Source: Streptomyces sp. R33 (GTDB lineage: Bacteria; Actinomycetota; Actinomycetes; Streptomycetales; Streptomycetaceae). Taken from it: DNA of 64,000 nt. Shown here piece after piece: positions 1-44,014 of the stretch. Both the position numbers and the translations under genes were made by a program. The notes below the pieces were generated by a model, which was not told the DNA's origin, made no database searches, and saw only the letters and a list, made by a program, of their open reading frames with translations. The stretch spans positions 2,418,001-2,482,000 of the forward strand of contig NZ_CP165727.1 of assembly GCF_041200175.1 (NCBI RefSeq), written 5' to 3'. Position 1 is the first letter of the stretch. Every line of letters begins with the position of its first letter.

Positions 1-2
1 GA

Positions 3-6000: not shown

Positions 6001-6347
6001 AGACCGACACCGCCGCACTGCCCGACCCGGTCCTGGCCGCGCCCGCCGCGTCCGTGGCGCCGCGCACCCCGACCGAGGTCGTGACGGCCCAGATCTGGGC
6101 CGAGGTCCTGGGCCTGCCCGAGGTCGGGATCCGGGAGGACTTCTTCGCCCTCGGCGGCCACTCGCTGCGCGCCGTGGCGGCCGCGTCCCGCCTGCGCACC
6201 GCGTTCGACTGCCCGATCCAGGTACGCGACCTGTTCGACCACCCGACGGTCGAACTGCTCGCCATGGAAGTGGAACGACAGCTCATCGACCAGATCTCCT
6301 CGATGAGCGACGACGAGATCGACCTGTCCCTGACCTCCGACTTCTGA
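3..6347 (+). CDS. Nonribosomal peptide synthetase, C-A-T-C-A-T (5' partial)
   Basis: Dimodular synthetase adding two amino acids to a carrier-bound peptide. Numbering from the GTG at 54: C1 about 1-430 with HHIAVDG near 122; A1 about 448-960 with [22 protein letters not shown] and NTSGKLDR; carrier Ser in LGGHSL near 995; C2 from about 1052 with HHVATDG near 1185; A2 about 1508-1970; carrier Ser in LGGHSL near 2037. The frame is open to the window edge, and the GTG at 54 falls inside the first C-domain motif, so the true start is probably upstream. My hand-read ten-residue codes are DADNVGAVTK (A1) and DAEEVGTISK (A2); I cannot assign either, though acidic pocket residues in A2 would suit a basic substrate. 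The acidic C-terminus looks like a docking tail for the next synthetase. A1 and A2 share long near-identical stretches. Confidence 0.95.
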
Positions 6348-6399: not shown

Positions 6400-9300
6400 A
6401 TGACCACTGCACAGGTCGAACCCTCCACCACCTCTTCCACGAACCCCGGCGGTCTCTCCCCGGCGGCCCGCCGGCTCCTCGAAATGCGCCTGCGCGGCAA
6501 GGCCGCCGCCGCGCCCGCGGGCATCCCCCGGCTCGACCCGCGCCCCGCGCAGGCCCCGCTGTCGGCCGCCCAGCAGCGGCTGTACTTCCTCGACCAGCTC
6601 GACCCCGGCGGCGTCGAGTACCTGATGCCCGCGGCCTGGCGGTTCACCGGCCCCCTGGACGCGGCCGCGCTGAGCGCCGCGATCGGGGACCTCGTCGCCC
6701 GCCACGAACAGCTGCGGGTGGTGTTCACCCAGGAGGACGGCGTACCGGCCCAGCACGTGCTCGCCGCCGCCGACGCACCCGGCCTGGACGTGGTCGACCT
6801 GCCCCCGGCGGTGCGGGGCGGCGGCCCCGGGGCGATCGCCGAGGCCGTACGGGAGGTGGCGCTGCGCCCCTTCGACCTGGCCGCCGCGCCCCCGTTCCGG
6901 GCCACCCTGCTGCGGATCTCCACCGAGGACCACGTCCTCGTCCTGGCCATGCACCACATCGTCTCGGACGGCTGGTCGCTGGACATCCTGACCGGCGACC
7001 TGAGCGCCTGCTACCGCGCCAGAACCCAGGGCCGGCCCCCGCACCTCGCCGCGCCACCGGTCGAGTACACCGACTACGCACACTGGCAGCGCGGGGCCGA
7101 CGAGAGCACGGAGCTGGACTACTGGCGTACGGCCCTGGCCGGGCTGACCCCGCTCGAACTGCCCACCGACCACCCGCGGCCGGCCGTGCGCACCTGCGCC
7201 GGCGCCGTGCACACGGTCGAGCTCCCCCAGCCGCTGACGGCGGCCCTGGCCGAGCTCGGCCGCCGGGCCGACACCACCTCGTACATGACCCTCATGTCGG
7301 CCTTCCAGGCGGCGCTGGCCTTCCACAGCGGCCAGGACGACATCGCGATCGGCACCGTCGTCGCCAACCGGGAACGCCCGGAGACCGAGCAGCTGGTCGG
7401 GTTCTTCGTGAACACCCTGGTGATCCGTACCGACCTGTCGGGCGACCCGACCTCGGCGCAGCTCCTCGCCCGGACCCGGGAGAGCGTCCTGGGCGCCCTC
7501 TCCCACCAGAGCCTGCCCTTCGAGCGGGTCGTCGACGAGCTGAGCCCCGAGCGGGACCTGTCGCGCAACCCGCTGTTCCAGGTGCTGTTCTCGCACTCCG
7601 CCGCCGCGAAGCAGGGCGCGTACGCCCTCGGCGACGCAACGGGAACGGCCTTCCCCATCGACCTGACCACCGCGAAGTTCGACCTGACGCTGGACGTCGG
7701 CGAGGACGCGGACCGCATCCGGCTCCGGTTCGTCTACCGCCCCGACCTGTTCGACGCGGCTTCGGTGGCGCGGCTGGCCGAGCACACCCTCGCGGTGCTG
7801 CAGGCGTTCGCCGAGGCCCCGGACGTCCCGCTCGGGATGGCCGACCTGCTCAGCGCCGACGAGCGGGCCGCACTGCTCGGCCCCGACGGCCCGGCGAACC
7901 GCCCGTCGGCGGCCGCCGTACCCGAGCCGGCACCCCGGCTCGCGCCGGAGCGCCTGGCCGAGCGGATCCGGCTGGCCCCCACCGCCGTGGCCGTCTCCGG
8001 CGGCGGCCGCAGCCTGACGTACGCCGAACTCGACGCGGCCTCCCTGGCCCTGGCCCGGCGGCTGCGGGCCGCGGGCATCGGCCCGGAATCCCTGGTCGGG
8101 GTCTGCCTGGGCCGTTCGGTCGACCTGGCCGTGGCCCTGCTCGGCGTATGGCGGGCGGGTGCGGCGTACCTGCCGCTGGACCCCGCCCATCCGCGGGCCC
8201 GGCGGGAGTTCACGGTCGGTGACGCCGGGGTGGAGTGGGTGGTCGCGGACGCCGTCGGCCGCGCCGCGGTGGAGGGGCTGCCGGTGGGCGTGATCCCGCT
8301 CGAGGACCCCGCAGAGGGCACGGGCGCCGACACGGCCGGCGGCTCGGCCGACGACACCGGGGAGCCGCTCTCCGCCGTGTCCTGCGGGCCGCAGACGCTC
8401 GCGTACGTCATCTACACCTCGGGATCGACAGGGCAGCCCAAGGGCGTCGAGATCACCCACGGCAACCTGGCCTGGCTGCTCGGCGCCGCCGACCGCCACT
8501 TCGACTTCGGCACCGACGACGTGTGGACGCTCCTGCACTCCCCCGCGTTCGACTTCTCCGTCTGGGAGCTGTGGGGGCCGCTGACCTCCGGCGGCCGCGT
8601 CGTGGTGCTGACCGAGGACGAGGTCCGCGACCCCGCCGCGGTGCACGCCGTCCTGCGCGACGAGCGCGTCACCGTGCTCAACCAGACCCCGGCCGCCTTC
8701 AAGGGGCTGCGGGCCCATCTGGCCCAGCAGGGCGAGGAGTTCGGTGCGCTCGCGCTGCGCACCGTGGTCTTCGGCGGGGACGCCTTCGACGCCCGCGACT
8801 ACCGCGACTGGTTCGCCGTACCCGAGGGTGAGCGGCCCGCTCTGGTGAACATGTACGGGATCACCGAGACCACCGTGCACGTCACCTACCGGCTGATCAC
8901 CGAGGAGGACACGGTCTCCCCCGTGTACTCGCCGATCGGCCGTCCCCTGGCCGGCCAGCACGGCTACGTCCTGGACCGGGCGGGCCGGCTGGTGCCGCAC
9001 GGCACGGTCGGAGAGCTGTACGTGGCCGGCGGCGGCGTCGCCCGCGGCTACCGCAACCGGCCGGAGCTGTCCGCCGAGCGCTTCCCCCTCGACCCGTTCG
9101 GTCCGGCCGGGACCCGCATGTACCGCACCGGCGACCTGGTACGGGTGCTGCCCGACGGGCAGTTGGCGTACGCCGGCCGGGCCGACCACCAGGTGAAGAT
9201 CCGCGGGTTCCGCATCGAGCCCGGCGAGATCGAGACCGCGCTGCGCGCCCTGCCCGGCGTACGGGACGCCGCGGTGGTGGCCCGGCCCGATGCGCACGGC

Positions 9301-12300
9301 GGCGCCCGCCTGGTCGCCCACGTGGTGCTGACCGAGGGCCGGCCGCTGGACGCGCCGGACCTGCGCGACCGGCTGCGGCTCACGCTGCCCGACTACATGG
9401 TGCCCGCGCTGTTCGTCCGGCACCCGAAGCTGCCGATCACCGCCAACGGCAAGGTGGACCGCACGTCCCTGGTGGCGGTGGCCGCCGAAGGGGCCGCCGC
9501 TCCCTCCGGGCACGTCCCGCCGGCCGGCGCGACGGAGGAGGCACTGGCCCGCATCTGGTCGGACGTGCTGGGCGCCGAGCGGATCAGCCGTACGGCGAAC
9601 TTCTTCGACCTGGGCGGCGACTCGATGCTGGCCCTGCGGGTGATCGGCCAGGCCCGCTCCGCCGGGCTGGGCCTGAGCGTCCCGGACCTGTTCCGCGCCC
9701 GCACCCTGGGCGACCTCGCGGCGCTGGCGACACAGGCCGCCGACGACACCGGCCCCGCGCCCGTGGAGCCGTTCTCCCAGCTCGACCCGGCCGACGCGGC
9801 CCGGCTGCCGGAGGGGCTCGAGGACGCCTACCCCCTCACCCTCCTGCAGACCGGCATGCTGCACGAGATGCTGGCCGACGAGCGGCGCGGCGCCTACCAC
9901 AACGTCACCGACCTCAAGATCACCGTGCCGGAGGGCTTCGACCTGTCCGCCTTCCAGGCGGCGGTGGACACCGCCGTGCGCAGCCAGGACATCCTGCGCT
10001 CCTCCATCGACCTCGTCTCGTACGGCGAGCCGCTGCAGCTGGTGCACCGGACCGCCGAACTCCCCGTCGGCTACAGCGATCTGCGCGCTCTGAGCCGTGA
10101 GGAGCAGCGCGCGGCCGTGAAGGCCTACGTCAAGGAGGAGTTCTCCCGCCGGTTCGACCTGGCCGCCGCGCCGCTGGTGCGCCTCCACCTGCACCAGCTC
10201 ACCGACCACGAGCTGCGGTTCACGATCACGGACTGCCATGTGGTCCTGGACGGCTGGAGCCTGACCTCGCTCATCGCGGACCTGCTCGACCTGCACCGCC
10301 GGGCCGTGGCCCTCGGGCGGGAGCCGAGCCTGCCCCCGTCCCCCCGGTTCGCCGAGTACGTGGCGCTGGAGCGGTCGGCGGCCGAGTCCGAGGAGGGGCT
10401 CGCCTTTTGGAGCGGCCGGCTGGCCGAGCTGCGGCCCGTACGGTTCCCGCGGCGCGGCAGCGGGTCCCCCTGCGCGGGGAGTTCGGACATCGTGGAGATC
10501 CGGCGCTCGTACGCGGCGCTGGCCGGGCCGATCGGCCGCCTCGCCCGGCTCGCCGGGGTACCGCGGCGGACCGTCCTGCTCGCCGCCTTCCACCACACGA
10601 TGGGCCTGTTCGCCGAGCCGGACACCGGCCATCCGGCCGCAGGCCACTCGATCGGCCTCGTCACCAACGGCCGTCCGGAGCTGCCGGGCGCCGACCGGAT
10701 GCGCGGGCTGTTCCTCAACAGCGTCCCGTTCGGTATCAGAAGGCCCGGCCCGGGGCAGAGCTGGCTGGATCTGCTGCGCACCGTCTTCGCGGCCGAGCAG
10801 GATCTGATGCCGCACCGCAGGGTGCCGCTGGCGCGGATCGGCCGGCTGCGGCCGAACGAGCCGGGCCTGGTCGACGTCCTCTTCAACTACGTCAACTTCC
10901 ACCGGCTCGCCGGGGACAGCTGGGACGAGTCCGAGGAAATCGCGCAGACCATGTTCCCCCTCAACATCAATGTGAGCGTGGAGGGGTTCAGCGTCGACGT
11001 CGACACGACGCGGGTGGATCCGGCCGCCGCCGAACAGCTCTCCGACGTGGTGTGCAAGCTGCTGGAGACGATGGTCGCCGACCCCGAGGGGCCGGTCACG
11101 GCGCCGCTGCTGGCGGCGGACGCGCGCCGGCGCGCCCTGGTGGACTGGGCGCGGGGCCCGGTGGTGGCGAACCCGCCGCAGCTGTTCCACGAGTGGATCG
11201 GCGAGCACGCCCGGCGCAGCCCGCAATCGGTGGCCGTCGCCCACGGCACCCGCGAGGTGACGTACGCCGAACTCGACACGTCGGCACAGGCACTGGCCGT
11301 CCGGCTGCGGGAACTCGGCGTGGGACCCGAGGTGATCGTCGGGATCTGCGCCGACCGGGGCCCGGACATGGTGCGGGCGGTGGTCGCCGTGCTCAAGGCG
11401 GGCGGCGCGTTCCTGCCGCTCGATCCCCAGCACCCCGCCGAGCGCCTCGCGTTCGTGGCCGGTGACAGCGGGATGCGGGTGCTGCTCACCCAGTCCGCGC
11501 TGGCGGGGACCGTACCGTTCGAAGGGGAGACGGTGCTGCTGGATGCGCCCCTTCCGGACTCCGCAGGGCCCCCGCCCGCGGCCGGGACCGGCGCCGACAA
11601 CACCGCGTACGTGCTGTACACCTCCGGTTCGACCGGCCGGCCCAAGGGTGCCGCGGTGCCCCACCGCGGGCTGACGAACCTGATCCACGGCCAGCGGGAC
11701 GTGTGCCGGCCCACCGGGACCGACCGGGTGCTGCAGTTCGCCTCGTTCAGCTTCGACGTGTTCGTCAGCGAACTGACCTGGGCCCTCGCGAACGGGGCGC
11801 GGCTGTGCACGGCGCCGAAGGAGGCGCTCTTGCCCGGCCCCGACCTGGCGGCCACGATCAACGCCCAGGGGATCACCGCCGCCGCACTGCCGCCGAGCTC
11901 GCTCGCGGTTCTGGCGGAGGAACGGGACGAGCTGCCCACGCTGCGCACCATCGTGACCGGCGGCGAGGCGCCCACGGCGGAGATGGCCGATGTGTGGTCC
12001 CGCGGTCGGCGCTTCGTCAACTCCTACGGTCTGACGGAGACCTCGGTGTGGTCCTGCGGTGAGATCTGCCGGGTGGGCGGCGGCCTGCCGCCGATCGGCC
12101 CGCCGATCCGCAATACGCAGGTGTACGTGCTCGACGACGCGCTCCAGCCGTTGCCGGTCGGGGTACCCGGCGAGATCTGCCTCGGCGGCGACGCCGTCGG
12201 CCTGTACTACCTGAACCGGCCCGAGCTCACCGCCGCCACCTTCGTGCCCGACCCGTACGGAACGACCCCCGGCGGGCGGCTGTTCCGCACCGGCGACCTC

Positions 12301-13749
12301 GGCCGCTACCACGCCGACGGCAGCATCGAATGCCTCGGGCGCCGCGACACCCAGGTCAAACTGCGCGGCTTCCGCATCGAACTGGGCGAGCTCGAACACA
12401 CGCTGCGGGAGCTGCCCGCGGTGCACAAGGCGGTGGTCCTGCTCCGCCGCGACCTGCCGGGCGACCCGGCTCTGGTCGCGTACGTGGTCCCCGCGCCGGA
12501 CTGCGCCCCGGACGCGGAGGCCCTGCGACTGGAGCTGCGCTCCCGGCTGCCCCAGTACATGGTGCCCGCGCGGTTCGTGTTCCTGGACGAGCTGCCGCTG
12601 AACACCAGCCGGAAAGTGGACCGGGGCGCGCTGCCGCTGCCGCAGGAGCGCTCCGACCTCGACACCGCCTACGTCGCACCGCGCACGCCGGCCGAGAAGG
12701 CGCTGGCGGAGGTGTGGCGTACGGTGCTCGGCCTGCCGCGGGTCGGCGTCCACGACGACTTCTTCCGCATCGGCGGCAGCTCCCTGTCGACGGTCCGGGT
12801 GGCCGCGCGGGCCGCGGCCCGGGGGCTGGCGGTCTCGGTCCGCGACCTGATCGAGGCACCCACGATCGCCCAGCTCGCCGCCCGTGCCGGGCGGTCGGCG
12901 GACACGGCGCAGGACGACGCGCAGGACGTCAGGTCCGAGGTCCGGCTCCGCGAGGGCGCGGGCGATCCGATGTGGTGCGTCCACCCCACGGGCGGCAGCG
13001 CTGCCTGGTACGTCGGGCTCGCCCGGGCCCTGCCCGCCGGAGTGCCGGTCCGGGCCTTCCAGGCCCGCGGGCTGCTCGGCGGGGTCGATCCGACCACGGT
13101 GGCCGGCATCGCGGCGAACTACGCAGCCGAGATCGCCGCCCATGGGGGGACCGGCCCGCACGACCTGTTCGGCTGGTCCATGGGCGCCAATCTGGCCCTG
13201 GAGATGGCGACACAGCTGCACGGGGCCGGCCACACCGTGGCGCCCCTGACGCTGATCGAGCCGTACCTGCCCTGCCCCGCCTCCCGGGAGCAGCTCGCCA
13301 CCGTCGGCCGGCACATGGAGGAGGGGCTGCGGCTGCGCGACCGGGTGCGCGCCCTGCCGCCGTCGGCCGAAAGGGAGGCGACGACCGCCGAGCTCACCGC
13401 GCTGCTGCTGGATGCGGGCATGAGCCCCGGCGAGGCGGCCCTGGTGGAGAACGCCCCGATCGAGGTGTGGCACTCGCTGCTCACCGCCCTGGCCGGCTAC
13501 GAGCTCCGGCCCTACCCCGGCCACATCCACCTCGTGGTGGGCTCGCAGGCCGCCGGGCTGCCCGACGGCGAGCCGATGCCCGGTCTGGACGTGGGCTTCC
13601 GGGAGTACGTCGAACGCTGGCGCGGGCTGGCCCTGGGCGGGCTGACCGTCCATGTGACCGAGGGAGACCACATGTCGCTGATGTCCGAGCCCCTGATCGG
13701 CACGACCGCGGCCCTTCTGCACTCCATCCGGACGGAGGCCCGGCGATGA
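6400..13749 (+). CDS. Nonribosomal peptide synthetase, C-A(Thr)-T-C-A-T-TE
   Basis: Terminal dimodular synthetase that adds two residues and releases the product. An N-terminal segment ([13 protein letters not shown]) looks like a docking region. C3 carries HHIVSDG near 186. A3 (about 511-1040) gives the code DFWNVGMVHK, matching the well-known threonine code apart from a conservative Ile-to-Val change. Its carrier is LGGDSM near 1071. C4 (about 1140-1570) has CHVVLDG in place of HHxxxDG, keeping the second, catalytic His. A4 (about 1593-2090) has YGLTE instead of YGPTE and the unassigned code DVSAVGSVWK. The second carrier is IGGSSL near 2124. The C-terminal thioesterase (about 2190-2449) has GWSMG near 2258 and GDHMSL near the end, so Ser and His are present. 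It starts 52 bp after the previous synthetase and overlaps the P450 gene by four bases (ATGA). Confidence 0.95.
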
Positions 13750-15056
13750 CTGCGACCGCGACTGAGACTACGACTACGACTACGACTACGACTGCCACTG
13801 CCACTGCGACCGGCCCGGCGCCGGCACCTGTCTGCGCACCGGCCGGATTCACCGAGCGGTACCTGCTCGACCCCGCCGTGAACGCCGACCCGTACGGGTA
13901 CCTGGGCTCCCTGCGCGACCACGACCCCGTGTACTGGTCCGCCATGCACCGGGCCTGGCTCGTCACCGGCCACGCCCAGCTGATGCACTGCCTGCGCGAA
14001 CCGGCGGTCTCCGCCGAGCGGGTGCGCCCGCTGATGGACGCCGTGCCGGAGGGCGCCCGCGAGGACGCCGAGCGGGCCTTCGCGATCCTGTCCCGCTGGA
14101 TGGTGTTCAACGACCCGCCCCAGCACCGGCGGCTGCGCCAGGTGTTCCAGGAGCAGTTCGCGGCCCGCTCGATCGGCCGCTACCGGGCCTTCGTCGAGCG
14201 CGCCACCCGCGCCATGCTCGCCCGCCGCGCCGTCCCCGGCCGGATCGGGGACCTGGTGGCCGACATCGCCCGGCCGCTGCCCGCCCTCGTCTTCGCCCGC
14301 TGGCTGGGCGTCCCCCAGGCGCACGGCCCGTCCTTCTGGTACTGGAACGCCCGGGTCGGCGACCTCGTCCTGGGTGCGGCCCAGGAGGAGCGCGAGTACC
14401 GCACCTCGCTCCAGTCCCTGGTCAACCTGGACGACTACCTCGCCGACCTGGTGCAGCAGCGCCGCGCCGACCCCAAGGACGACCTGATCAGCGCCGTGCT
14501 GGCGGGCGGCCAGATCGGGAAGTCGGTCAGCGAGGAGGAGTTCGTCGGGATGCTGACGCAGATGGCGTTCGCCGGCGGCGAGACCACCAGCAACCTCATC
14601 GTCAACGCCGTGCTGGCCCTGCTGGAACACCCCGAGCAGCTGGCGGCCGTACGGGAGGACCCGCAGCTGGTGCCGATGGCGGTGGAGGAGGCCATGCGCT
14701 TCGACGGCCCGTCGAAGATGTCGATCCGCACCGCCGCCCGGGACTTCGACCTCGACGGGCGGTCCGTCCGCGCGGAGGACCGGCTGTTCCTGGTCACGGC
14801 GGCGGCCAACCGGGACCCGGCGCGCTTCGCGGACCCTGACCTGTTCAGCGTCCGGCGCGGCAGCGCCTCGCACCTCGGCTTCGGCTTCGGCGCGCACTTC
14901 TGCATCGGGGCGGCGCTGGCACGGCTGGTGGCCGGGGCGGTGGTCGACGTACTCGTACGCGAGTACCCGGGCCTGGAGCTGCTCGACCGGCAGCAGCACA
15001 CCTGGCAGCTCTCGCTGCTCAACCGCGCTCTGACCGCCCTGCCCGTCCGCTACTGA
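13746..15056 (+). CDS. Cytochrome P450
   Basis: Haem monooxygenase of 436 residues, probably tailoring the NRPS peptide or a carrier-bound residue. Diagnostic motifs: I-helix [10 protein letters not shown]-helix EEAMR (ExxR), and the haem-ligand loop [10 protein letters not shown] with the proximal Cys. Its length fits a soluble bacterial class I P450, which needs external ferredoxin and reductase; neither is seen nearby. The ATG overlaps the synthetase stop (ATGA), with GGAGG at 13734-13738 seven bases upstream, so translational coupling is likely. The first 30 or so residues are a Thr/Ala low-complexity tail encoded by tandem GACTAC-like hexamers, unlike normal P450 N-termini. Substrate cannot be told from sequence. 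Confidence 0.93.
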
Positions 15057-15153: not shown

Positions 15154-16452
15154 ATGGCTACCACTCTGGCGGACGCGGGATCACGGCTGCGCGCCCCCGC
15201 CCGGCTGCCGTCGTTCCGCCTGCTGTGGCTCGGGCAGTCCCTGTCGCTCCTCGGTGACGGGTTCAGCTACATCGCCTTCGCCTGGATCACGCTCGGCCTG
15301 ACCGGGTCCACCCTGGCCCTGGGCTACGTACTCGCCTTCCAGGCGGTGCCGCGGGCCCTGCTCACCCTGGTGGGCGGCTCGCTCAGCGACAAGTGGTCCT
15401 CCCGGACGCTGATGAAGTTCTCCAGCTGGGCCCGGGCCGCCCTGATGGCGGCCGTGGGACTGGCCGGGACGGGCGGCGCCCTGACGCTCTGGATGCTGTG
15501 CTGCGCCGCCGCGGCCTTCGGCGCCGTCGACGCGTTCTTCCAGCCCGCCAGGGCGTCGATCCTGCCGTCGGTGGTGGACAAGGAGCTGCTGGCACCGGCC
15601 AACGCCCTGCTCACGGTGGCCGCCAAGGTCGCGGCGGTGCTCGGCCCGGCCGTCGGCGGCATGGTGGTGGCGTTCAGCGACGCCTCCATCGCCTTCCTCG
15701 TCGACGCGGTGTGCTTCGCGCTGTGCGGGCTGTGCGTCGCCGGAATACGGCCCCTGGCCCGGCCCGCGGCGCCGGAGCAGGAGCAGGAGCAGGAGCCGGG
15801 TGCGCCGCAGGCGGACGGTGAGCGGCCCGCGCCGGCGCCTGCGGCCGGGGACTCGCTGGCCGCCCGGATGCGCGCGGGGCTGCGGTACGCCTTGGAGGAC
15901 CCCCGCATCCGGACGATCCTGGTCGTCGACGCGGCGGTCACGTTCTGCCAGTCGGGCCCGTTCACCGTCGGCTTCGCCACCCTGGCCAAGGTCGACCTGC
16001 ACGGCGGCTCGACCACCCTCGGCCTGCTCAACGGCGCGCTGGCCGGCGGGGCGATGCTGGGCACGCTCGTCGGAGGCTCCCTGAGCAGCCGCCCCCGGGT
16101 GGGTCTGCTGATCGCCGCGCTGGCCGGCTGGCTCGCCGTCGGCACCGCGGCGCTCGCCCTGGTCGGCAACACCGGGGCGGCCCTCGCCACGGTCCTGGCG
16201 ATGGGCTTCGGCATGGGCTTCCAGGGGGTGTTCGGCCTCAGCTGGATCCAGCGCAACATCCCCGGCTCCGTACTGAGCCGCGTCATCGCGGTGGACATGG
16301 TCATCGGCTACGCCGTCGCCCCGCTCTCCCTGATCGCCTGCGGAGCCCTGGCCGGCTCGGGCACCGGCCCGATGTTCGCCCTCTCCGCGGTGATCCTCGC
16401 GGTGACCGCCCTCGGGATCCTCGGCTCGCGGACGGTCCGCGAGATGCGCTGA
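15154..16452 (+). CDS. MFS transporter, putative peptide exporter
   Basis: Integral membrane protein of 432 residues with alternating hydrophobic segments typical of 12-helix major facilitator proteins of the EntS-like group. The loop LVGGSLSDKWSSRTLMK after helix 2 fits the MFS A-like motif. A hydrophilic loop near residues 205-235, rich in Glu/Gln and Ala/Pro, separates the two halves. It lies 97 bp after the P450 on the same strand, past a hairpin, so it is probably part of the NRPS cluster and exports the product or gives self-resistance. An AAGGG sits about ten bases before the ATG. It ends convergent to the LAL regulator, 64 bp away. Confidence 0.88.
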   Translation: MATTLADAGSRLRAPARLPSFRLLWLGQSLSLLGDGFSYIAFAWITLGLTGSTLALGYVLAFQAVPRALLTLVGGSLSDKWSSRTLMKFSSWARAALMAAVGLAGTGGALTLWMLCCAAAAFGAVDAFFQPARASILPSVVDKELLAPANALLTVAAKVAAVLGPAVGGMVVAFSDASIAFLVDAVCFALCGLCVAGIRPLARPAAPEQEQEQEPGAPQADGERPAPAPAAGDSLAARMRAGLRYALEDPRIRTILVVDAAVTFCQSGPFTVGFATLAKVDLHGGSTTLGLLNGALAGGAMLGTLVGGSLSSRPRVGLLIAALAGWLAVGTAALALVGNTGAALATVLAMGFGMGFQGVFGLSWIQRNIPGSVLSRVIAVDMVIGYAVAPLSLIACGALAGSGTGPMFALSAVILAVTALGILGSRTVREMR

Positions 16453-16516: not shown

Positions 16517-19447
16517 TCACGGCGCCGACGGGGCCAGGGACGCGGAGAGTTCGCAGAGGGCGGCCCGGTTGGTGCGGCCCGTCTTGGTGCCCAGGGCGGC
16601 GATGTGCTTCTCGACCGTGCGCGGGGAGATGTAGAGGCGGTCGGCGATGTCCTTGTTGCCCAGGCGCTCCGCGAGCAGCCGGAAGACCTCGTACTCGCGG
16701 ACCGTGACGCCCTGGGAGCGCAGGACGTCCGGGATCGTGCTCGATCCCGTGCGGCGCTGCTGGACCGGGGCGCCCATCCGGCGCAGGGCCGCGCGGCAGG
16801 CGCCCGCGACCGCGGCCACGCCGCCCTGGTGGAAGTGCTCCTCGACGCGGCGCAGCCAGGCTACCGGCTCGCCCCAGCCGTCCTCGTACGCCGCTTCGGC
16901 GATCAGCCGCAGGCCCAGGTGGAGTGCGGTGGCGTACGGGGCTGCGGCGCGCAGGGCCTCGGCCGCGGCGGCCGCAGCCTCCTCGGGGCGGCGTTCGCGG
17001 CCCAGCAGGACGGCGCCGGCGAAGAGGACGAACTGCCGGTTCCAGCGCATCCGCCCGGGTGCGGTGGCGGCGATCTCCTCGTACGCGGCGCGGTCGGCCT
17101 CCCCGGACAGCACGTCCAGGAGCAGGCCGATGCCGTACCGCCCGCTGAGGTAGTACGTGGTGGGGTTGGTGTCCTCGAGGTCGGCGACGGCGCGCAGTTC
17201 GCGGACGGCGCCGGGCCGGTCCTCCTCCGTCAGTGCGCAGAAGGCCCGGGCGAGGCCCCGGGTCAGCGGTTCCTCCTGGGAGCCGGCCCCGTCGCAGTCG
17301 GCGAACGCGGCGAGGGCGCTCTCCATCGCGGGGCGGTCGCCCCGGTGGGCCGCCATCGCCGCCCGGGCCATCAGGACGTAGCGGGTGGCGGGAGCCAGCC
17401 GCAGGCGCTGTACGACGGCCAGGCACTCCTCGGCGGACTGCTGCGCGGCGGTGAACTCGGCGCGCAGGACGGCGTCGAGGATCATGATGCCGTCGATGGT
17501 GTAGACGATGGTGGCCGAGCCGAGCCGCTGGGCTTCGCTGCGGGCCGCCAGCAGCGGGGCGGTGGCGCCCTCGGTGAGCCAGTAGTTCCCGCCGATCCGG
17601 GTGAGCGCGTACATGCGCTGGAGCGGGAGCTGGTGCTGTTCGGCGGTCTGCAGGGCGGATTCCAGCAGGGCGGTGGCCTCGTCGAAGTCCCGTTCGCGGG
17701 CGAGGGTGGCGAGGAGTTCCAGGGACTGGCAGGCGACGGTCGCCAGGCCGTGGCGCTGCGCCGCCTGGAGCGCGGAGTGGGCGAGTTTCTCGGCCAGTTG
17801 GGTGCGGTCCGGGCCGGGGGTGTCGAGTGCGAGGTACGCGGCGGTGACGTCGATCGAGGCGGTGCAGCTTTCGTCGGGCCGGGGACCCAGGAGGGCTCTG
17901 GCCTGGGATATCTGTCTGTTGCCGTCCTCCCAGCGGCCCGCGGTGTGGGCCACCTTGGCGAGCCGGGTGTGCAGCGCGGCGAGCCGGGAGGCGCTCAGGC
18001 CGCTGCCGCCGAGGGTGTGCAGGTTCTCCGCGAAACCGAAGGCCCGGGCGAAGTCACCGGCTTCGGCGAGCGCGGGGAGCAGGGCCTCCAGGGCGTCGGT
18101 GCGCCCTGCGGGGTCCTGGCTGGCGGCGAGCAGCCGTTCGGCGCGGCTGAGCAGGGTGATCGCGGAGCCGATCGCGCCGGCCGCGAGGGCGCGCAGGCCT
18201 GCGTCGGTGAACAGGCGGCCGGCCTCGGCCTCGTCGCCCGCCTGGGAGCGCAGCTCGGCGACGAGGGGGCACCAGTCGCCCTCGAGGTCCGGGTAGAGCG
18301 CCTGCACCGCGTCCGCGGCACGACCGGACATCGTGGCCCGGTTGCCCGGTGTGAGCTGGGTGAGCAGGGCCTCGGCGGTCAGCGAGTGGCGGAACGCGTA
18401 CCAGTCGGGGGCGGGTTCGTCGGGGACGACGAGCTGCGCCGCGACGCCGGCGTGCAGGTGGCTGAGCAGTCCGCGGTCGTCGATGCCGGTCATCCGCTGG
18501 AGCACGGTCAGCGGGAAGCGGCGGCCGATCACGGCGGCCGCGGACAGCAGGGTCAGCCCCTGCGGGCCGAGCCGGTCGATGCGGCGCAGGATCCCGCGCG
18601 CGAGGGCGGTGGACACATCGCTGCGCAGGTCGCCGACCACGCGCCAGCCGTCTTCGAAGCGGACGAGGGCGCCGCTGCCGATCATGCCCTGGAGGAGTTC
18701 CTCGACGAGGAAGGGGCTGCCGGCGCTGTCGTCCCAGAGCCGGTCCAGGGCCGCCTGCGGCACCCGTTCGGGTTCGGTGTCCAGCTGGGCGGCGATGACC
18801 GCCCGGACCTCGGGGCGGGTGAGCGGGGCGAGTTCCAGTACGGTCCCCACGCCGCGCCGACGGGCCGAGTCGGCCATGTCGAGCGCGTCGCAGGGCTCCG
18901 TACGGATCGTGGCCAGGAGCACCACGTTCGTGTACTCCAGGTTGTCCACCAGGTATTCGACGACCGCGAGCGTCTCGGGGTCGGCGTCGTGCAGGTCCTC
19001 CAGCAACAGGAGCTGGCCGTGCTCCTTGCCGGTGGCGATGAGCAGCCGCAGCACGGCCTCACCGAGGACGACCATGGAGCTGTTGTTCTGGGCGTCGCTG
19101 CTCCAGTCCGGGATGATCCTGCCGAGCGCGGGCCGGTAGGGGCCCAGCGGCAGGTCGTCCAGGGAGGTGCCGTCGAGCGGGCCGCTGCGGAAGAGCGACA
19201 TCAGCGCTTCGGTGAGTGGCCGGAAAGGGACGGTGGGGCCGGTGGTGCTGCTCCGGCCCCGTAAGGCCCGCATGCCCGCGCCGAAGGCCATGCCCACGGC
19301 TTCGGCGGCGAGCCGGGACTTTCCGATTCCGGCTTCGCCGACCAGGAAGACGACCCCGCCGCGCCCTTCGCCCGCGTCGGTCAGTGCCTGCTTGATCTCG
19401 CGCAGTTGCGAGTCACGACCGACGATGTACCGCGAACGGGAACGCAT
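16517..19447 (-). CDS. LAL-family LuxR transcriptional activator with AAA/STAND ATPase
   Basis: Large 976-residue regulator. The N-terminal NTPase has Walker A GEAGIGKS (about 37-44) and a Walker B region LLLLEDLHDAD (about 145). A long helical-repeat middle follows, then a C-terminal LuxR helix-turn-helix (about 905-965, LTREYEVFRLL-like start, NKDIADRLYISPRTVEKHI). Proteins of this build are common pathway-specific activators in Streptomyces clusters. Codon 62 is TTA, so translation may depend on the bldA tRNA. The gene follows the precursor-peptide gene on the same strand after 130 bp and converges with the NRPS operon. It could control either cluster; position alone does not decide. Confidence 0.92.
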   Translation of the reverse strand: MRSRSRYIVGRDSQLREIKQALTDAGEGRGGVVFLVGEAGIGKSRLAAEAVGMAFGAGMRALRGRSSTTGPTVPFRPLTEALMSLFRSGPLDGTSLDDLPLGPYRPALGRIIPDWSSDAQNNSSMVVLGEAVLRLLIATGKEHGQLLLLEDLHDADPETLAVVEYLVDNLEYTNVVLLATIRTEPCDALDMADSARRRGVGTVLELAPLTRPEVRAVIAAQLDTEPERVPQAALDRLWDDSAGSPFLVEELLQGMIGSGALVRFEDGWRVVGDLRSDVSTALARGILRRIDRLGPQGLTLLSAAAVIGRRFPLTVLQRMTGIDDRGLLSHLHAGVAAQLVVPDEPAPDWYAFRHSLTAEALLTQLTPGNRATMSGRAADAVQALYPDLEGDWCPLVAELRSQAGDEAEAGRLFTDAGLRALAAGAIGSAITLLSRAERLLAASQDPAGRTDALEALLPALAEAGDFARAFGFAENLHTLGGSGLSASRLAALHTRLAKVAHTAGRWEDGNRQISQARALLGPRPDESCTASIDVTAAYLALDTPGPDRTQLAEKLAHSALQAAQRHGLATVACQSLELLATLARERDFDEATALLESALQTAEQHQLPLQRMYALTRIGGNYWLTEGATAPLLAARSEAQRLGSATIVYTIDGIMILDAVLRAEFTAAQQSAEECLAVVQRLRLAPATRYVLMARAAMAAHRGDRPAMESALAAFADCDGAGSQEEPLTRGLARAFCALTEEDRPGAVRELRAVADLEDTNPTTYYLSGRYGIGLLLDVLSGEADRAAYEEIAATAPGRMRWNRQFVLFAGAVLLGRERRPEEAAAAAAEALRAAAPYATALHLGLRLIAEAAYEDGWGEPVAWLRRVEEHFHQGGVAAVAGACRAALRRMGAPVQQRRTGSSTIPDVLRSQGVTVREYEVFRLLAERLGNKDIADRLYISPRTVEKHIAALGTKTGRTNRAALCELSASLAPSAP
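19262..19264 (-). other. TTA leucine codon in the LAL regulator
   Basis: On the minus strand the Leu in M-R-A-L-R-G (codon 62) reads TTA, in frame. By eye it is one of only two in-frame TTA codons in the annotated genes. In Streptomyces TTA is decoded by the developmentally controlled bldA tRNA. Confidence 0.9.
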
Positions 19448-19577: not shown

Positions 19578-19805
19578 CTACCAGGTGACGTTCGGGGCCG
19601 AGACGCTGGTGTCGATCGAGCTCAGGGTGATCACGATGCCGCTGGTGAGCACCACACCGGCCAGAGCACGGGCCCGGGCGCACGCCTTGTTCCGACCCGA
19701 CAGGGTGATCCCGCCGGCCGGGTCCTCGATCCGCGCCTCGGCCGCGGTGGCGGCGGCCTCGTCGGCGGCGGTGACGGACTGGGCGTTGACCTGGGGCTTC
19801 TGCAT
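19578..19805 (-). CDS. Lanthipeptide-like precursor peptide (LanA candidate)
   Basis: A 75-residue peptide lying 41 bp downstream of the LanM-like gene on the same strand. Residues 1-32 form an acidic, Ala-rich leader ending DPAGG, a double-Gly site typical of class II leaders. The 43-residue core after it has one Cys (C42), five of its basic residues between 38 and 46, then a hydrophobic C-terminal half rich in Ser/Thr (T54, S55, T60, S62, S63, T66, S67, S69, T74) ending in Trp. The tetrapeptide ITLS occurs twice (33-36 and 59-62). One Cys allows at most one thioether ring, so much of the core could remain as dehydrated residues. The ATG follows AAAGG at 11-nt spacing. The identification rests on context and leader form; no family match is claimed. 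Confidence 0.75.
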   Translation of the reverse strand: MQKPQVNAQSVTAADEAAATAAEARIEDPAGGITLSGRNKACARARALAGVVLTSGIVITLSSIDTSVSAPNVTW

Positions 19806-19846: not shown

Positions 19847-22800
19847 TCAGTGCTGACGTGCTGCGGTGCCGAGGTGCCGATCGGGTTCGAGGAGCAGGAC
19901 GGACGGGACGGCCTCCGGGAAGCCCAGCCTGAGCAGGGCGTATCCGATCCCGGAGAGCCCGGTGAGGAAACCGGGGGACGGTACGTGGTCGGGGGTGCCG
20001 CAGCGGTGGCCGTGGTCCTCCAGCCGGCCGAGGACCTCCCCGGCGCGGTGGCCGAGTGCGGCCCGGGCCCCCTCGTGGCCCTGACCGGCGAGGACGCCGA
20101 GCAGCTCCAGGGAGCCGAGGGCGCCGTGGTGCAGGCTGAGGTCGCAGGATTCGAAGGGCGCGCCCAGCAGGGCGGCGCACCGGTCGAGTTCTGCCACGGG
20201 CACGCCGGAGCCGAGTGCTTCGGCGCCGAGTGCGTCGGGGCCGAGTACGTCGGCGGCGGCCAGCGCGGTGCCCGCGAGGCCCGTGTGCCAGCCGAGGTCC
20301 GCGGGACGGCGCAGGGCCTCGTCCAGCGCCGGGCGCAGCAGCGCGGCACCGGTGCGGGCGTACGCGGCGTCCGGCTGCCCCGCCTCCTGCGAGGCGGCGG
20401 CGTGGCGCAGCAGGGCCCAGCCGATTCCGGCGTCGCCGTGGGCGAAGCCGGGGGCCGCCGGGCGCTGTTCGGCGAGCCGCTTCTCGGCCCGTCCCAGCAG
20501 CCGGGCGGCGAGCCGCCGGGTCACCGCCTCCGCGCCGGCCCCGTACGTGCGCTGCGCGGCGACCGCGGCGGCCAGGGCTCCGGCGAGGCCGTCGGCCAGA
20601 TCGGCCGGCCCTTCAGCGCCTTCCTCGGCATCGGCCTCGGCCACGCGTTCCAGGGCGGCGAGGGCGTCGGGCAGGCAGTCGCCCAGGCCCTCGCCGAGCA
20701 GCGGGGCCAGCCGGGCCACGGTGTAGACGATGCCGCCGAGTCCGTGCAGCGCGCCGGGTCCCACCGCGGCGCCCAGCCCGGGGTCCCCGGCCAGCGTCGC
20801 CAGCAGCGCGGGCAGCGGCCGTACGGCCTGCCGGGCCAGCGCGGTGTACCGCTCCGCGCCGGTCAGGGCGCCGAGCTGGGCCAGGAACAGCGCCACCCCG
20901 CAGTAGCCCTGGGCGAGCCCGCCGCCCATCGGCAGGACGGCCCAGTGCTCGCCGGCCACCTGCTCCAGGCCGAGCCAGTTGACCCGCCCGCCGCCGTGCA
21001 CCGCCCGGGCCGCGATCTCGTCCGCGATCCCGCAGGCCGCGGCCAGCAGCCGGGACGGCTCGGGTACCACGGCCGGCGCGGCGGGTCCGGCGAGGGTCGA
21101 ACGGGGGCCGCCGACGCTGAGGTTGGCCCCGGTGACGGCCAGCGTCGCCGAGATGATCCACTCCTGGTCGTGGCGGTCCACCTCCCCCATGGCGGCGATC
21201 TTGTCGCGGGCGGAGCGCAGGCTCGGGGCCGGCAGCACACCGTCGAGGCGGGTGCCCCGGGAGGTGCGCAGCGCGGTGTCGGCGGGGTGGTGGAAGAAGA
21301 GCGGCACGTCCCCGGACCACAGGTCGGCGATCTCGTCCTCGATCAGCCGCTGGCGGGCCGGGTCGTGCTCGGACTCCGCCCAGAGCACGGCGAGCACCGC
21401 GTCACGCGTCAGGGCGTCGCGCAGCACGTCGGGGTGCGTGGACTCGTCCAGCAGGGTCGTGTAGAGGCGGGTCGAGCGGGCGATCAGGCGCCCGGGGCTG
21501 GTGGCCCAGCGGGCCAGCAGACCGCCGTCGGCGCCGCCTTCCTCACCCTGGGCGTCACTGCCCAGGAGTTCGGCCCGGTGCTCGGCGATCGCGTCGTACC
21601 CGGCGCGGAACCCCTCCAGCAGCGCGGCCCGGTGGTCGGCGTGGCCGGCCGCCCGGCCCTGCGGCGCCGGCCGGTTCTGCCCGGCAGCGCTGGCCACCGG
21701 GCCGCGCAGCAGCCGCATCCCGTCCGTCCCGGCGGCCTCCCAGCGCAGCCCGTCGCTGGGGTACGAGCCGCCGTCCCCGCCGCCCAGCGCCGAGATGTCC
21801 ATGGCGCCGTTCTCGCCGATCAGCAGGCTCGGCAGCAGGCAGGTGCGGTACACCGAGGAGGCCAGGGCCTCCGCAGCCGGGTCCGACCCGCAGGTCACCG
21901 CGGCCGGCAGACCGGCGTGCAGCAGGGTCTCGGCGTCCACCAGCACCGGCTGGTCACCGCAGGCGATGACGTTCTCGTAGTGCATGTCCACGCCGTCGAC
22001 CGCGTAGAGGAGGGCGAGGAGCGCGCCCTGGCGCCGGTAGAACCGGTCCAGTTCGGTGGGCGTGGCGCACCAGCCGTGCTCGATGAACTCCAGCCAGCCG
22101 TACCCGTCGCCGCGCACCGAGCGCGGGGTCCTGAGGCCCAGGCCCGGCACCTTGCCGTTGGCCCAGCCCACCGCCTGGTCCAGCAGGACGTGCTGGTCCA
22201 GCGGCCGGGGCTTGTAGACGACGGTCGCCCCGTCGGCGAAGCCCAGCAGGGCCACGGACCGGTTGCCCTGGTGGACGTCACCCCGGCCGAGGTCCACCCG
22301 TACGAGGGCGCCCGGGTCGCAGCCGTGCAGCAGCCCCTCGACGATCGCCGCCCGGTCGGCGGTGAAACGGTCCAGCAGCTCCACCGTGGCCGAGGCGGCG
22401 AGGCCGCAGGCCTGGCCCAGCATCCGCGCCAGCACCGGGTAGCGTGTGAAGAGTTCGGCGAGGCCCTGCCGGGTGCCGAGCCGCGCCAGGAAGGCCGCGA
22501 ACCGCTCCCGCGGGGTCTCCCCCGCCAGCAGGCCCTCCGTACGGGCCCGGTGGAGTTCCCGGACCAGGGTGCGGGCCGACTGCCGGATCAGCCGGTCACC
22601 GAGCCTCTCCTCGAACGCGGCGCGCACGGCGCCGAGTTCGCCCTCGGCGAGGTCGATGCGTCCGGCCGCCTCCGCCCAGGCGGCCGCGATCAGGGGGCGC
22701 AGCGCGGGCAGGAACACCGCGGCGCCGTCCGCGTCCGCCGCCGCGGGGACCGGCCTGCCTGCCTCTGCGGGGGCCGCGGCCACCATCTGCTCGATGTACC

Positions 22801-23086
22801 GGGCCCACTGCGGCTTGGCCGTACGGGCGGCCAGCCGGCCGGGGGCCTCCGCCGCGAGGGCGTACGCCACGTCCTCGCCGGCTCCCAGGCCCGCCAGCCG
22901 GGCCGCGAAGCCCTCCGTGTCCCCCAGGGACCACGAAGCCGGCCGGCCGTGGGGGGCGTCGGCCGGTGCGGGTACCGGGGTACCCGGGGCGGCGAGCCGC
23001 TCCCGCAGGTTCAGGGCCCGGGCCCACCAGGAGGGGGCCAGGCCGCCGACCTGGGTTTCTTCGGCGGTGGTGGCGGTGTCAGTCAC
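19847..23086 (-). CDS. LanM-like class II lanthipeptide synthetase with altered zinc site
   Basis: Bifunctional synthetase of about 1079 residues. The N-terminal dehydratase appears intact: GDVHQGN, VVYKPRPLD, DMHYEN (368-372) and VDAETL, all expected for Ser/Thr phosphorylation and elimination. The C-terminal LanC-like barrel keeps GFAHG (H883) and the repeated G-x-x-G helices, but the expected WC-x-G reads WHTG (H934) and the expected CHG reads HHG (H986, H987). Both zinc cysteines are therefore His. The protein may dehydrate the precursor while cyclising poorly, or bind metal differently. I chose the GTG at 23086 because GAGG lies eight bases before it; another in-frame GTG is at 23119. 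It is followed by the precursor gene. No dedicated LanT peptidase-exporter is nearby. Confidence 0.88.
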   Translation of the reverse strand: MTDTATTAEETQVGGLAPSWWARALNLRERLAAPGTPVPAPADAPHGRPASWSLGDTEGFAARLAGLGAGEDVAYALAAEAPGRLAARTAKPQWARYIEQMVAAAPAEAGRPVPAAADADGAAVFLPALRPLIAAAWAEAAGRIDLAEGELGAVRAAFEERLGDRLIRQSARTLVRELHRARTEGLLAGETPRERFAAFLARLGTRQGLAELFTRYPVLARMLGQACGLAASATVELLDRFTADRAAIVEGLLHGCDPGALVRVDLGRGDVHQGNRSVALLGFADGATVVYKPRPLDQHVLLDQAVGWANGKVPGLGLRTPRSVRGDGYGWLEFIEHGWCATPTELDRFYRRQGALLALLYAVDGVDMHYENVIACGDQPVLVDAETLLHAGLPAAVTCGSDPAAEALASSVYRTCLLPSLLIGENGAMDISALGGGDGGSYPSDGLRWEAAGTDGMRLLRGPVASAAGQNRPAPQGRAAGHADHRAALLEGFRAGYDAIAEHRAELLGSDAQGEEGGADGGLLARWATSPGRLIARSTRLYTTLLDESTHPDVLRDALTRDAVLAVLWAESEHDPARQRLIEDEIADLWSGDVPLFFHHPADTALRTSRGTRLDGVLPAPSLRSARDKIAAMGEVDRHDQEWIISATLAVTGANLSVGGPRSTLAGPAAPAVVPEPSRLLAAACGIADEIAARAVHGGGRVNWLGLEQVAGEHWAVLPMGGGLAQGYCGVALFLAQLGALTGAERYTALARQAVRPLPALLATLAGDPGLGAAVGPGALHGLGGIVYTVARLAPLLGEGLGDCLPDALAALERVAEADAEEGAEGPADLADGLAGALAAAVAAQRTYGAGAEAVTRRLAARLLGRAEKRLAEQRPAAPGFAHGDAGIGWALLRHAAASQEAGQPDAAYARTGAALLRPALDEALRRPADLGWHTGLAGTALAAADVLGPDALGAEALGSGVPVAELDRCAALLGAPFESCDLSLHHGALGSLELLGVLAGQGHEGARAALGHRAGEVLGRLEDHGHRCGTPDHVPSPGFLTGLSGIGYALLRLGFPEAVPSVLLLEPDRHLGTAARQH

Positions 23087-23418: not shown

Positions 23419-24054
23419 GTGGGAGTACCCGTGCCTGTCGACGTCGTCGCGTTCGACCCCGTGCTGGAAGCCGGAACCAAGAGCACCCTGTTCGCCTGCC
23501 CGGAGGTGTGCCTGACGGCGCCGGGCGGCGCGCCGCGGGTCGTGGTCATGACCGTGGACCAGGTCGGCCGGCCCGAGCTCGACGTCCTGCGCACCGTCCG
23601 CGAGGCCCCGGCCCGCCCCGATGTGGTGCTGGTGGCGGGCGAGTTGGCGCCCGACGGCGCCCTGCACGCCATAGCGGCCGGCGCCCGCGGTCTGCTGCGG
23701 CGGCGCGAGGCGGACGTCGCGGGACTCTCGCGCGCCGTACTGGCCGCCTCCCGCGGCGACTGCACGCTGCCGCCGGACCTGCTGGACCGGCTGCTGGAGC
23801 GCTCCGGCGCCGGAGGCAGGACGGGCAGCGGGTCCGACGGGGGTACGGACCCGTGGGCGGCGGCCGGCCTGAGCGACCGTGAGCGCAGCGTGCTGCGCCT
23901 GGTCGCGGACGGCCACGAGACGAACGAGATAGCGAAGCAGCTGTGCTACTCGCCGCGCACCGTGACGAGCGTCGTCCACGACATCACCCAGCGGTTCCGG
24001 CTGCGCAACCGTGCGCACGCGGTCGCCTACGCCCTCCGGGTGGGCCTGCTGTGA
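23419..24054 (+). CDS. LuxR-family regulator with pseudo-receiver
   Basis: A 211-residue regulator. The C-terminal LuxR/NarL helix-turn-helix is clear (about 148-205: LSDRERSVLRLVADG, EIAKQLCYSPRTVTSVVHDI). The N-terminal part has a receiver-like pattern, but where a phospho-accepting Asp is expected (DVVLxDxxLPDG) it reads DVVLVAGELAPDG, so it is probably not phosphorylated. Start GTG 23419 has GGAGG five bases upstream. It is divergent from the LanM-like gene and overlaps the next regulator by GTGA. It probably regulates the adjacent lanthipeptide-like genes; it lacks a partner kinase. Confidence 0.85.
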   Translation: MGVPVPVDVVAFDPVLEAGTKSTLFACPEVCLTAPGGAPRVVVMTVDQVGRPELDVLRTVREAPARPDVVLVAGELAPDGALHAIAAGARGLLRRREADVAGLSRAVLAASRGDCTLPPDLLDRLLERSGAGGRTGSGSDGGTDPWAAAGLSDRERSVLRLVADGHETNEIAKQLCYSPRTVTSVVHDITQRFRLRNRAHAVAYALRVGLL

Positions 24055-24473
24055 GCGCCGTCGCCGAACTCACGCGCGAGAGCGCGCCCGTACGGGTCCC
24101 GGCGGCGCCGGACCGGCTGAGCCTGCTGCGCCAGGCGGGGGACGGCCTGATGCCGTACCCGGCCCTGGTCCGCCTGCTCGGCGCGGCCACGACCGCCGGC
24201 ACGACCGCTGGCCCGGCCGCCGTCGCCGGCACCTCCGCCGCGACCGCGCCGGGGCTCCGGTCCGCGGCCCCGCCGGACGCCCCCCGGCTCACGGTCCGCC
24301 AGACCGCGGTGCTCACGCTGATGGCGGAGGGCCACGGCAATGCGGTGATCGCCCGCACCCTGTCCTGCTCCGAGCACACGATCAAGAACGTGATCTACGA
24401 GCTGATGTCCCGCCTCCAGGCCCGCAACCGCGCCCACGCGGTGGCCTGTGCGGTACGGCACAGCCTCATCTGA
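24051..24473 (+). CDS. Small LuxR-type HTH regulator
   Basis: A 140-residue protein. The N-terminal 70 residues are Ala/Thr-rich with no recognised domain. A LuxR HTH fills the C-terminus (LTVRQTAVLTLMAEGHGNAV, then CSEHTIKNVIYELMSRL). Its last helix (RNRAHAVACAVR) closely resembles that of the preceding regulator (RNRAHAVAYALR), suggesting the two arose by duplication. Its GTG start overlaps the upstream stop (GTGA), implying coupled translation and perhaps a heteromeric pair. A longer in-frame ATG further upstream is not used here because it would lie deep within the previous gene. Confidence 0.8.
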   Translation: MSAVAELTRESAPVRVPAAPDRLSLLRQAGDGLMPYPALVRLLGAATTAGTTAGPAAVAGTSAATAPGLRSAAPPDAPRLTVRQTAVLTLMAEGHGNAVIARTLSCSEHTIKNVIYELMSRLQARNRAHAVACAVRHSLI

Positions 24474-30516: not shown

Positions 30517-30721
30517 GGCGCGGACTCCCCGGACACCCCGGGCTCCACTGCATCCGCAACGAGGTACGCCATACTTCCCCCTCCGGGGCACCCGGCCCCG
30601 CCTCCACGTGCTTTCGCCCACCGGCCGGATCTGGCAGGTGCCCGTCTGACAGGTGGTCGGAAAGTACCTCCGGCCCCCGGTTCCGCGCAGGGTTTCCACC
30701 GGATCAACCCGATCGGAAGCC

Positions 30722-30755
30722 GTCGCCCCGCCGGGCAACAGCCCGGCGGGGCGAC
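30722..30755 (-). terminator. Strong hairpin downstream of msrB
   Basis: Perfect 15-bp stem (arms 30722-30736 and 30741-30755) with an AACA loop, about 50 bp past the msrB stop. There is no T-tract on either side. It probably ends the murC-msrB transcript and insulates the nSTAND promoter, which lies in the rest of 30517-30804. Confidence 0.7.
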
Positions 30756-42655: not shown

Positions 42656-44014
42656 ATGGAGACCATGGCGCACCTGGGGGTGGGCATCGGCTGGCGGCCG
42701 GAGATCGCTGACGCGGTGGAGCGGCTGCCGGGCCTGGACTGGGTCGAGGTGGTGGCCGAGAACATCTGCCCCGGCCACCTGCCCGCATCACTGCTGCGGC
42801 TGCGCGAGCGCGGGGTGCGTGTCGTACCGCACGGGGTCTCGCTGGGACTCGGCGGCGCTGATCGGCCCGACGCGCAGAAGCTGGCCGCACTCGGGGAGCG
42901 GGCGGTGGCGCTGGGGGCGCCGCTCGTCACCGAGCACATCGCGTTCGTCCGGACGGCATCGCCGGCGCTGGAGGCGGGTCATCTGCTGCCCGTGCAGCGG
43001 ACGCGGGACGCGCTGGACGTGCTGTGCGAGAACGTCCGGATCGCGCAGGACGCGCTGCCGGTGCCGCTGGCGCTGGAGAACATCGCCGCGCTGATCCCGT
43101 GGCCCGGGGAGGAGCTGACGGAGGCCCGGTTCCTGACGGAGCTGGTGGAGCGGACGGGGGTCCGGCTGCTGATCGACGTCGCCAACCTGCACACGAACCG
43201 GGTGAACCGGGGGGAGGACCCGTTCGCCGTGCTGGACGCGATCCCGCTGGAGGCGCTGGCGTACGTGCACGTCGCCGGGGGCGTGGAGCGGGGCGGGGTG
43301 TGGCACGACACGCATGCCCATCCGGTGCCGGCGGTGGTGCTGGACATCCTGGCGGAGCTGCGGAACCGGGTGGAGCCGGCGGGCGTGCTGCTGGAGCGGG
43401 ACGACGATTTTCCGGCGGAGGCGGAGCTGGCCGGGGAACTGGCCGCCATTCGGGGGGTGGTGGGCCCTGCGGGGCCGTCCCCTGCCCGCCCTTCCGCCTC
43501 CCCCGGACTCCGTCCGGGAGGGACCTCCACCCGGGGCTCCGCCCCGGACCCCGCGCCTCGAACGCCGGCGACGCTGGAGGGTGAAGAGCCGGCCGGGCCG
43601 GATCAGCGGGCTCGGATCCGGGTCGGGCTGGAGCAGGGGGCGCTGTTGTCGGCGCTCGTGGCCGGGACGCCCGTGCCCGAGGGGTTCGACCGGCAGCGCG
43701 TACGGGTGCAGGCGCGGGCTCTGGCCGCGAAGCGGGCCGGGGTCGTCGCGAAGCTCGCGCCCGAGCTGCCCGGGGTCCTGGGGGGTGAGGACCCGTACCG
43801 CGAGGCCTTCCTCGCGTACGCCCGCAACCGGCCCATGACCGCCGGATACCGGCGCGACGCCCTCGACTTCGCCGAGCACCTGCTGATCCAGGACCTGCCC
43901 GCCGACCCCGCGGCCCGCCGCCGGCTCACCTCCTGGTGGCGGGACCGGGTCGGGGCGCGGCCGCCGCGCCGGATCGTGCGCTGGGCCCGGACCCTCGTGG
44001 GGCGTGCGGCATGA
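42656..44014 (+). CDS. DUF692 multinuclear iron oxidase (MNIO) with fused partner-like domain
   Basis: A 452-residue TIM-barrel iron enzyme of the DUF692 family, which includes MbnB and TglH that modify cysteines in peptides. Likely metal-site residues: [51 protein letters not shown] and LLERD. After a Pro/Gly-rich linker (about 275-315) comes a second domain (about 320-450: [35 protein letters not shown]) like the separate substrate-binding partner proteins of MNIOs. GAGGGG precedes the ATG. The gene overlaps the next by ATGA, and that protein ends in a Cys-rich tail that is the natural candidate substrate. The linker DNA contains a dispersed intergenic-type repeat. Confidence 0.88.
43502..43571. 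repeat. Intergenic-type repeat inside the MNIO coding frame, copy 2
   Basis: Contains hairpins CCCGGAC-TCC-GTCCGGG (43502-43518) and CGGGGC-TCC-GCCCCG (43532-43546) and then the 20-mer shared with 35791-35810. It encodes the low-complexity linker between the two MNIO domains and stays in frame. Confidence 0.75.

Follow-up and report, generated by a model that had tools for sequence, protein, structure and literature searches.

A zinc-less clade of LanM-derived enzymes in Streptomyces and Streptacidiphilus, encoded beside a candidate precursor peptide with a cysteine-free tail

The window, by which we mean the whole stretch of 64,000 nucleotides analysed here (Streptomyces sp. R33, contig NZ_CP165727.1, positions 2,418,001 to 2,482,000), carries a lanM gene set among regulatory and NRPS genes. 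The features discussed below are:

54..6347, plus strand: NRPS (condensation, adenylation and carrier domains), syntenic neighbour
6400..13749, plus strand: NRPS with terminal thioesterase, syntenic neighbour
13878..15056, plus strand: cytochrome P450, syntenic neighbour, inside a 908-aa ORF from 12330
15154..16452, plus strand: MFS transporter, syntenic neighbour
16517..19447, minus strand: LAL-type regulator (AAA_16 ATPase and GerE/LuxR HTH), third member of the triad
19578..19805, minus strand: candidate precursor peptide, 75 aa, directly downstream of lanM
19593..19613, minus strand: conserved precursor tail DTSVSAP, residues 65-71, proposed dehydration target
19680..19682, minus strand: Cys42 of the precursor, present in 49/49 peptides of the zinc-less clade
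19847..23086, minus strand: lanM (LanM-like synthetase), GTG start, 1079 aa, stop included; PF13575 dehydratase and PF05147 LanC-like cyclase without Zn-ligating Cys
20126..20131, minus strand: H986-H987 in HHG, second and third zinc-ligand positions (CylM Cys911-His912)
20285..20287, minus strand: H934 in WHTG, first zinc-ligand position (CylM Cys875)
21923..21940, minus strand: VDAETL, residues 383-388; D384 is CylM Asp364
21971..21988, minus strand: DMHYEN, residues 367-372; D367, H369 and N372 are CylM Asp347, His349 and Asn352
22205..22216, minus strand: YKPR of the dehydratase, residues 291-294; K292 is CylM Lys274
23431..24054, plus strand: small LuxR-type regulator, divergent from lanM
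24051..24473, plus strand: second small LuxR-type regulator

An alternative GTG start of lanM, upstream at 23119, is possible. A scan of bacterial genomes yielded 58 related loci, and 58 usable LanMs entered the family alignment. A LAL-type regulator lies at most four genes downstream of lanM in all 49 loci with enough sequence, and 40 of 50 loci have small LuxR genes upstream of it. LanM, peptide and LAL-type LuxR regulator make up an invariant triad that in most cases has NRPS genes next to it. Next come NRPS, P450 and MFS genes in the majority of Streptomyces loci; the neighbours in L060 are PKS-like, and the part of L114 that was read contains no NRPS gene. No YcaO gene occurs near lanM (the nearest is 1.7 Mb away), and neither a protease, a C39 peptidase nor a LanT-like exporter was found beside it. 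Elsewhere in the window (26284-30738, minus strand) there is a large protein with trypsin-like and nSTAND1 NTPase domains and weak beta-propeller matches, a domain combination frequently seen in signalling or defence. Many zinc-less loci, L029 (positions 1-5825) and similar ones, also encode Lant_dehydr_N-only proteins, a free PCP, an MbtH-like protein, a PPTase and a PLP enzyme, and resemble NRPS clusters with PEARL-type enzymes (PMC11212132). The window also encodes, at 42656-44014 on the plus strand, an enzyme of the MbnB/TglH/ChrH (DUF692) family, a RiPP-modifying family.

Enzymes of the LanM family normally remove water from a peptide and then close sulfur rings. The window LanM matches the LanM profile TIGR03897 over nearly its full length with 635 bits (cut-off 304 bits), has the class II fusion of PF13575 (DUF4135) to PF05147 and possesses both the kinase and the elimination residues of the dehydratase. 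The Cys-Cys-His (or Cys-Cys-Cys) zinc site of a class II cyclase is missing from it and reads HHH. An earlier note on this DNA had pointed to YKPR, DMHYEN, VDAETL, GFAHG, WHTG and HHG, and all of them are present at the positions it gave. It had also claimed that both cyclase cysteines were replaced by histidine, and had proposed an alignment that might place the true ligands elsewhere. The alignment with CylM bore out the replacement: H934, H986 and H987 fall on Cys875, Cys911 and His912, the published zinc ligands, and no displaced Cys ligands came to light. Normal LanMs likewise have His as their third ligand, so only two ligand positions have been replaced. A sequencing error is not the explanation, because the LanM of S. 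katrae (97% identical) shares HHH and all 48 zinc-less enzymes are without the Cys pair. H883, which sits in GFAHG, is not diagnostic because this position varies among zinc-intact relatives too. Cys1029 (20000-20002, minus strand) is invariant in all 58 family LanMs; as a substitute zinc ligand it was rejected, being invariant in the zinc-intact relatives as well. An AlphaFold model of moderate quality (pLDDT 70, pTM 0.55; usable for the fold, unfit for site geometry) matched LicM2 (6ST5, Foldseek E 4.7e-30) and CylM (5DZT, E 2.2e-22) over the whole length, and its cyclase half also matched LanC-like proteins.

The zinc ligands are Cys-Cys-His in 10 of the 58 aligned LanMs, all of them basal. 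In 48 the site is absent, and these enzymes make up a clade of about 48 LanMs from Streptomyces and Streptacidiphilus. As many as 26 different triplets stand at the three ligand positions of the 48. HHH is found in two only, the window LanM and that of S. katrae; six near relatives have HHR, HHS or HGH, other branches have HRH, YRD or YGR, the largest branch has mostly SGQ, AGQ or VGQ, and L054 (CGH) retains Cys at the first position. Ranked by variability against all cyclase columns, the three ligand columns reach the 95th, 69th and 83rd percentile. Because there are so many triplets, HHH is so rare and the nearest relatives have HHR, HHS or HGH, the HHH of the window is best described, judging from these sequences, as a snapshot of decay and not as a selected tri-His site. 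To obtain a base rate, LanMs were collected with TIGR03897 from 296 genomes drawn evenly from the class (actinobacteria) and scanned for the motifs by pattern, some partial ORFs not being readable at both of them; WC and C(H/C)G were kept in every readable LanM other than the window enzyme and G426, which itself belongs to the zinc-less clade. In a tree built from the dehydratase part alone, the zinc-less and intact states need one change, and the zinc-less group has an SH-aLRT value of 89, just below the strict mark. The zinc site was lost once, in a single event. The lanM genes of L053 and L061 are frameshifted, for which sequencing error and pseudogene formation are both possible.

The equivalents of CylM D252, H254, K274, D347, H349, N352, D364 and R506 are invariant in 58/58 LanMs. 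The T512 position is T or S in 57/58; among zinc-less enzymes it is T except for Pro in L008, and S occurs in some zinc-intact ones. In the cyclase, W933, G936, G939, G988 and G991 of the scaffold, together with C1029, are kept in 48/48 zinc-less LanMs, and 50 of the 68 columns that are invariant in zinc-intact relatives stay at least 90% conserved. The metal site is gone and the cyclase barrel is retained, since the scaffold residues are kept and the model matches LicM2, CylM and LanC-like proteins. Taken as a ratio, cyclase over dehydratase, the protein distances come to 1.35 within the zinc-less clade (sd 0.18, 1124 pairs) against 1.00 in zinc-intact enzymes (sd 0.09, 45 pairs), a gap to be read with the reservation that the pairs are non-independent and that saturation, the intact relatives being more distant, may explain part of it. 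Between close pairs the cyclase dN/dS is 0.26-0.46, so that purifying selection persists. To judge from these rates the domain is under relaxed constraint and has not been abandoned, and because selection persists it presumably still does something.

The candidate precursor is encoded directly downstream of lanM, and precursor-like ORFs of 64-92 aa adjoin lanM across the family. They share a layout of a variable N-terminus, a D[PA]AGxIxL motif, a basic segment GRNxxCARAR, a hydrophobic stretch (Kyte-Doolittle 17-mer mean 2.04) and the tail DTSVSAP. In the window the C-terminus is the Cys-free DTSVSAPNVTW, and Cys42, part of the basic segment, precedes T66 by 24 residues. D65, T66, V68 and S69 are conserved in 49/49 precursors of the zinc-less clade. 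Residues 28-75 have a pN/pS of 0.31, indicating purifying selection, and the N-terminus has 1.63. In a scan of 150 genomes of the genus the precursor adjoined lanM in 11/11 carriers, and the R33 genome has one convincing copy, the one adjoining lanM. No Pfam or NCBIfam model names the peptide. Nor is it a LanA with Ser/Thr and Cys in its core, for the tail is Cys-free in every zinc-less member and the one Cys lies upstream. PAGG was considered as a double-glycine cleavage site and rejected; because its second Gly can be R, D or Q instead and is not retained by the outgroups, a role within a recognition motif seems more plausible. A weak class-wide match, G408, was likewise rejected as an unrelated protein. 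In L031, L033, L048, L053 and L061 a precursor copy has as its divergent neighbour the gene of a second LuxR-like regulator, about 330 aa long, and L048 and L061 additionally carry a copy beside lanM. The adjacency in five loci supports a pairing of peptide and regulator.

Tails with Cys occur in basal members (L055 DTTCCPP, L060 ETSCCPP, L056 TTCCPT, L049 TTPICSVS) and only together with intact zinc sites, and all zinc-less members have Cys-free tails. A third group (L114, whose tail alignment is uncertain, L035, L036, L112 and L113) combines Cys-free tails such as HTTVSAPI or IDTTVS with intact zinc sites. Because such intermediates exist, the plainest reading of the tree is that the thiols of the tail were lost first and the metal site of the enzyme later. 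The family would then offer lanthipeptide biosynthesis a natural case of substrate-enzyme co-evolution whose intermediate stages are still living.

A probable explanation can be put together from these observations. Loss of the cyclase metal site has probably turned a class II LanM into a dehydratase-only enzyme that makes a linear dehydropeptide from the adjacent Cys-free peptide, itself the likely substrate. LanM would phosphorylate and then eliminate Ser/Thr in the tail DTSVSAP, the residues dehydrated being presumably T66, S67 and/or S69, and the product would be a linear peptide with Dhb/Dha and no thioether. The cyclase domain would persist in a structural and probably also substrate-binding role; a DTTCCPP-type ancestral tail would have lost its Cys before the single loss of the zinc site. 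There is good support for the suggestion of the earlier note that dehydration may be the main activity, the dehydratase residues being invariant, the zinc site erased clade-wide and the tail of the candidate substrate free of Cys. A LanM annotation does not imply rings, and about 48 enzymes labelled lanthionine-forming by current models now have a named candidate substrate.

Some observations do speak against a dehydratase-only enzyme: Cys42 is conserved in 49/49 precursors, the cyclase is under purifying selection, L008 has Pro at the T512 position, and the gene has neither a protease nor a LanT-like exporter beside it. The first two would suit a metal-independent cyclisation in which Cys42 and a dehydrated Ser/Thr form a ring, in the zinc-independent manner of class III LanKC domains; class III cyclases function without metal (PMC10604976, PMC10301443). 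In principle Cys42 could form a ring, either enzymatically in class III fashion or spontaneously. However, the domain is class II by sequence (full-length TIGR03897 match, LanKC 29.5 bits), Cys42 is placed in the basic segment well ahead of the tail, and L112/L113, the next zinc-intact outgroup, have no equivalent of it, so that we regard this explanation as unlikely.

It is less likely still that the LanM no longer modifies peptides at all and is decaying or moonlighting like the Clostridium LanM-like protein CA_C0082. Zinc-less LanM-like regulators without known catalysis do exist (PMC10301443), and the frameshifts in L053 and L061 would fit decay, but the zinc-less clade keeps all dehydratase catalytic residues, including those for elimination, which CA_C0082 does not have, and the linkage of lanM and peptide is maintained across genera. 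Finally, the three histidines of the window and S. katrae enzymes, together with H883 of GFAHG, might be taken for a novel metal site, still able to activate a thiol or to perform other chemistry. The earlier note had thought of such a site with altered metal binding; as an evolved feature it fared badly, HHH being one triplet of 26 in variable columns and the near relatives having Arg, Ser or Gly there, and we consider it very improbable.

If the LanM is indeed a dehydratase-only enzyme, the use of its product may lie in regulation. The peptide, with its signal-anchor-like segment, might undergo export and then be recognised by the LAL or LuxR proteins. From the gene neighbourhood, we tentatively propose, as a possibility somewhat short of an even chance, that the product acts as a regulatory signal to the LAL/LuxR proteins encoded next to it, which would control the neighbouring NRPS or PKS cluster. 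More speculative, and rather doubtful at present, is the idea that dehydratase-only LanM, membrane-anchored or Sec-exported small peptide with the five-residue tail DTSVS and LAL receptor constitute a new signalling module, in which Dha/Dhb and not thioether rings would be the signal chemistry controlling NRPS/PKS clusters. The locus provides a testable peptide-plus-regulator module linked to actinobacterial NRPS and PKS clusters.

The window LanM shares the two-domain fold and the dehydratase catalytic residues with CylM (5DZT) and LicM2 (6ST5), but its clade lacks the cyclase zinc site and the tail of its candidate precursor lacks Cys. Because the zinc site is a defining LanM feature, the enzyme should, on sequence grounds, be termed LanM-derived rather than a lanthionine synthetase. 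That dehydration can outlast the zinc site has a precedent in lacticin 481 synthetase, whose zinc-ligand mutants keep it (Paul 2007, as cited in PMC10301443). A natural counterpart is CcaM (LanMbC) of the dehydrazoles, in which a DUF4135 dehydratase is likewise joined to a cyclase domain without zinc; it dehydrates without forming rings, gives a product with dehydro residues and no lanthionine, and still requires its cyclase half for dehydration (PMC10676384). CcaM differs in that its cyclase domain is of the class III type and that it has YcaO as a partner; neither applies to the window LanM, a class II enzyme minus its ligands. CA_C0082 of Clostridium acetobutylicum is also LanM-like, without the zinc motif and linked to signalling genes, but it is shorter (about 700 aa against 1079 aa), has lost the dehydratase residues that the window LanM keeps, and has no known precursor (PMC10301443). 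In the literature that we searched, no description of this clade was found. Since Cys-free precursors beside LanMs in actinobacteria have been noted before (Zhang 2015, as cited in PMC7268733), surveys already in print may show the clade. The clusters with Cys-free precursors that PMC7268733 names in this connection combine LanM with LanKC, whereas the clade described here is linked to NRPS genes.
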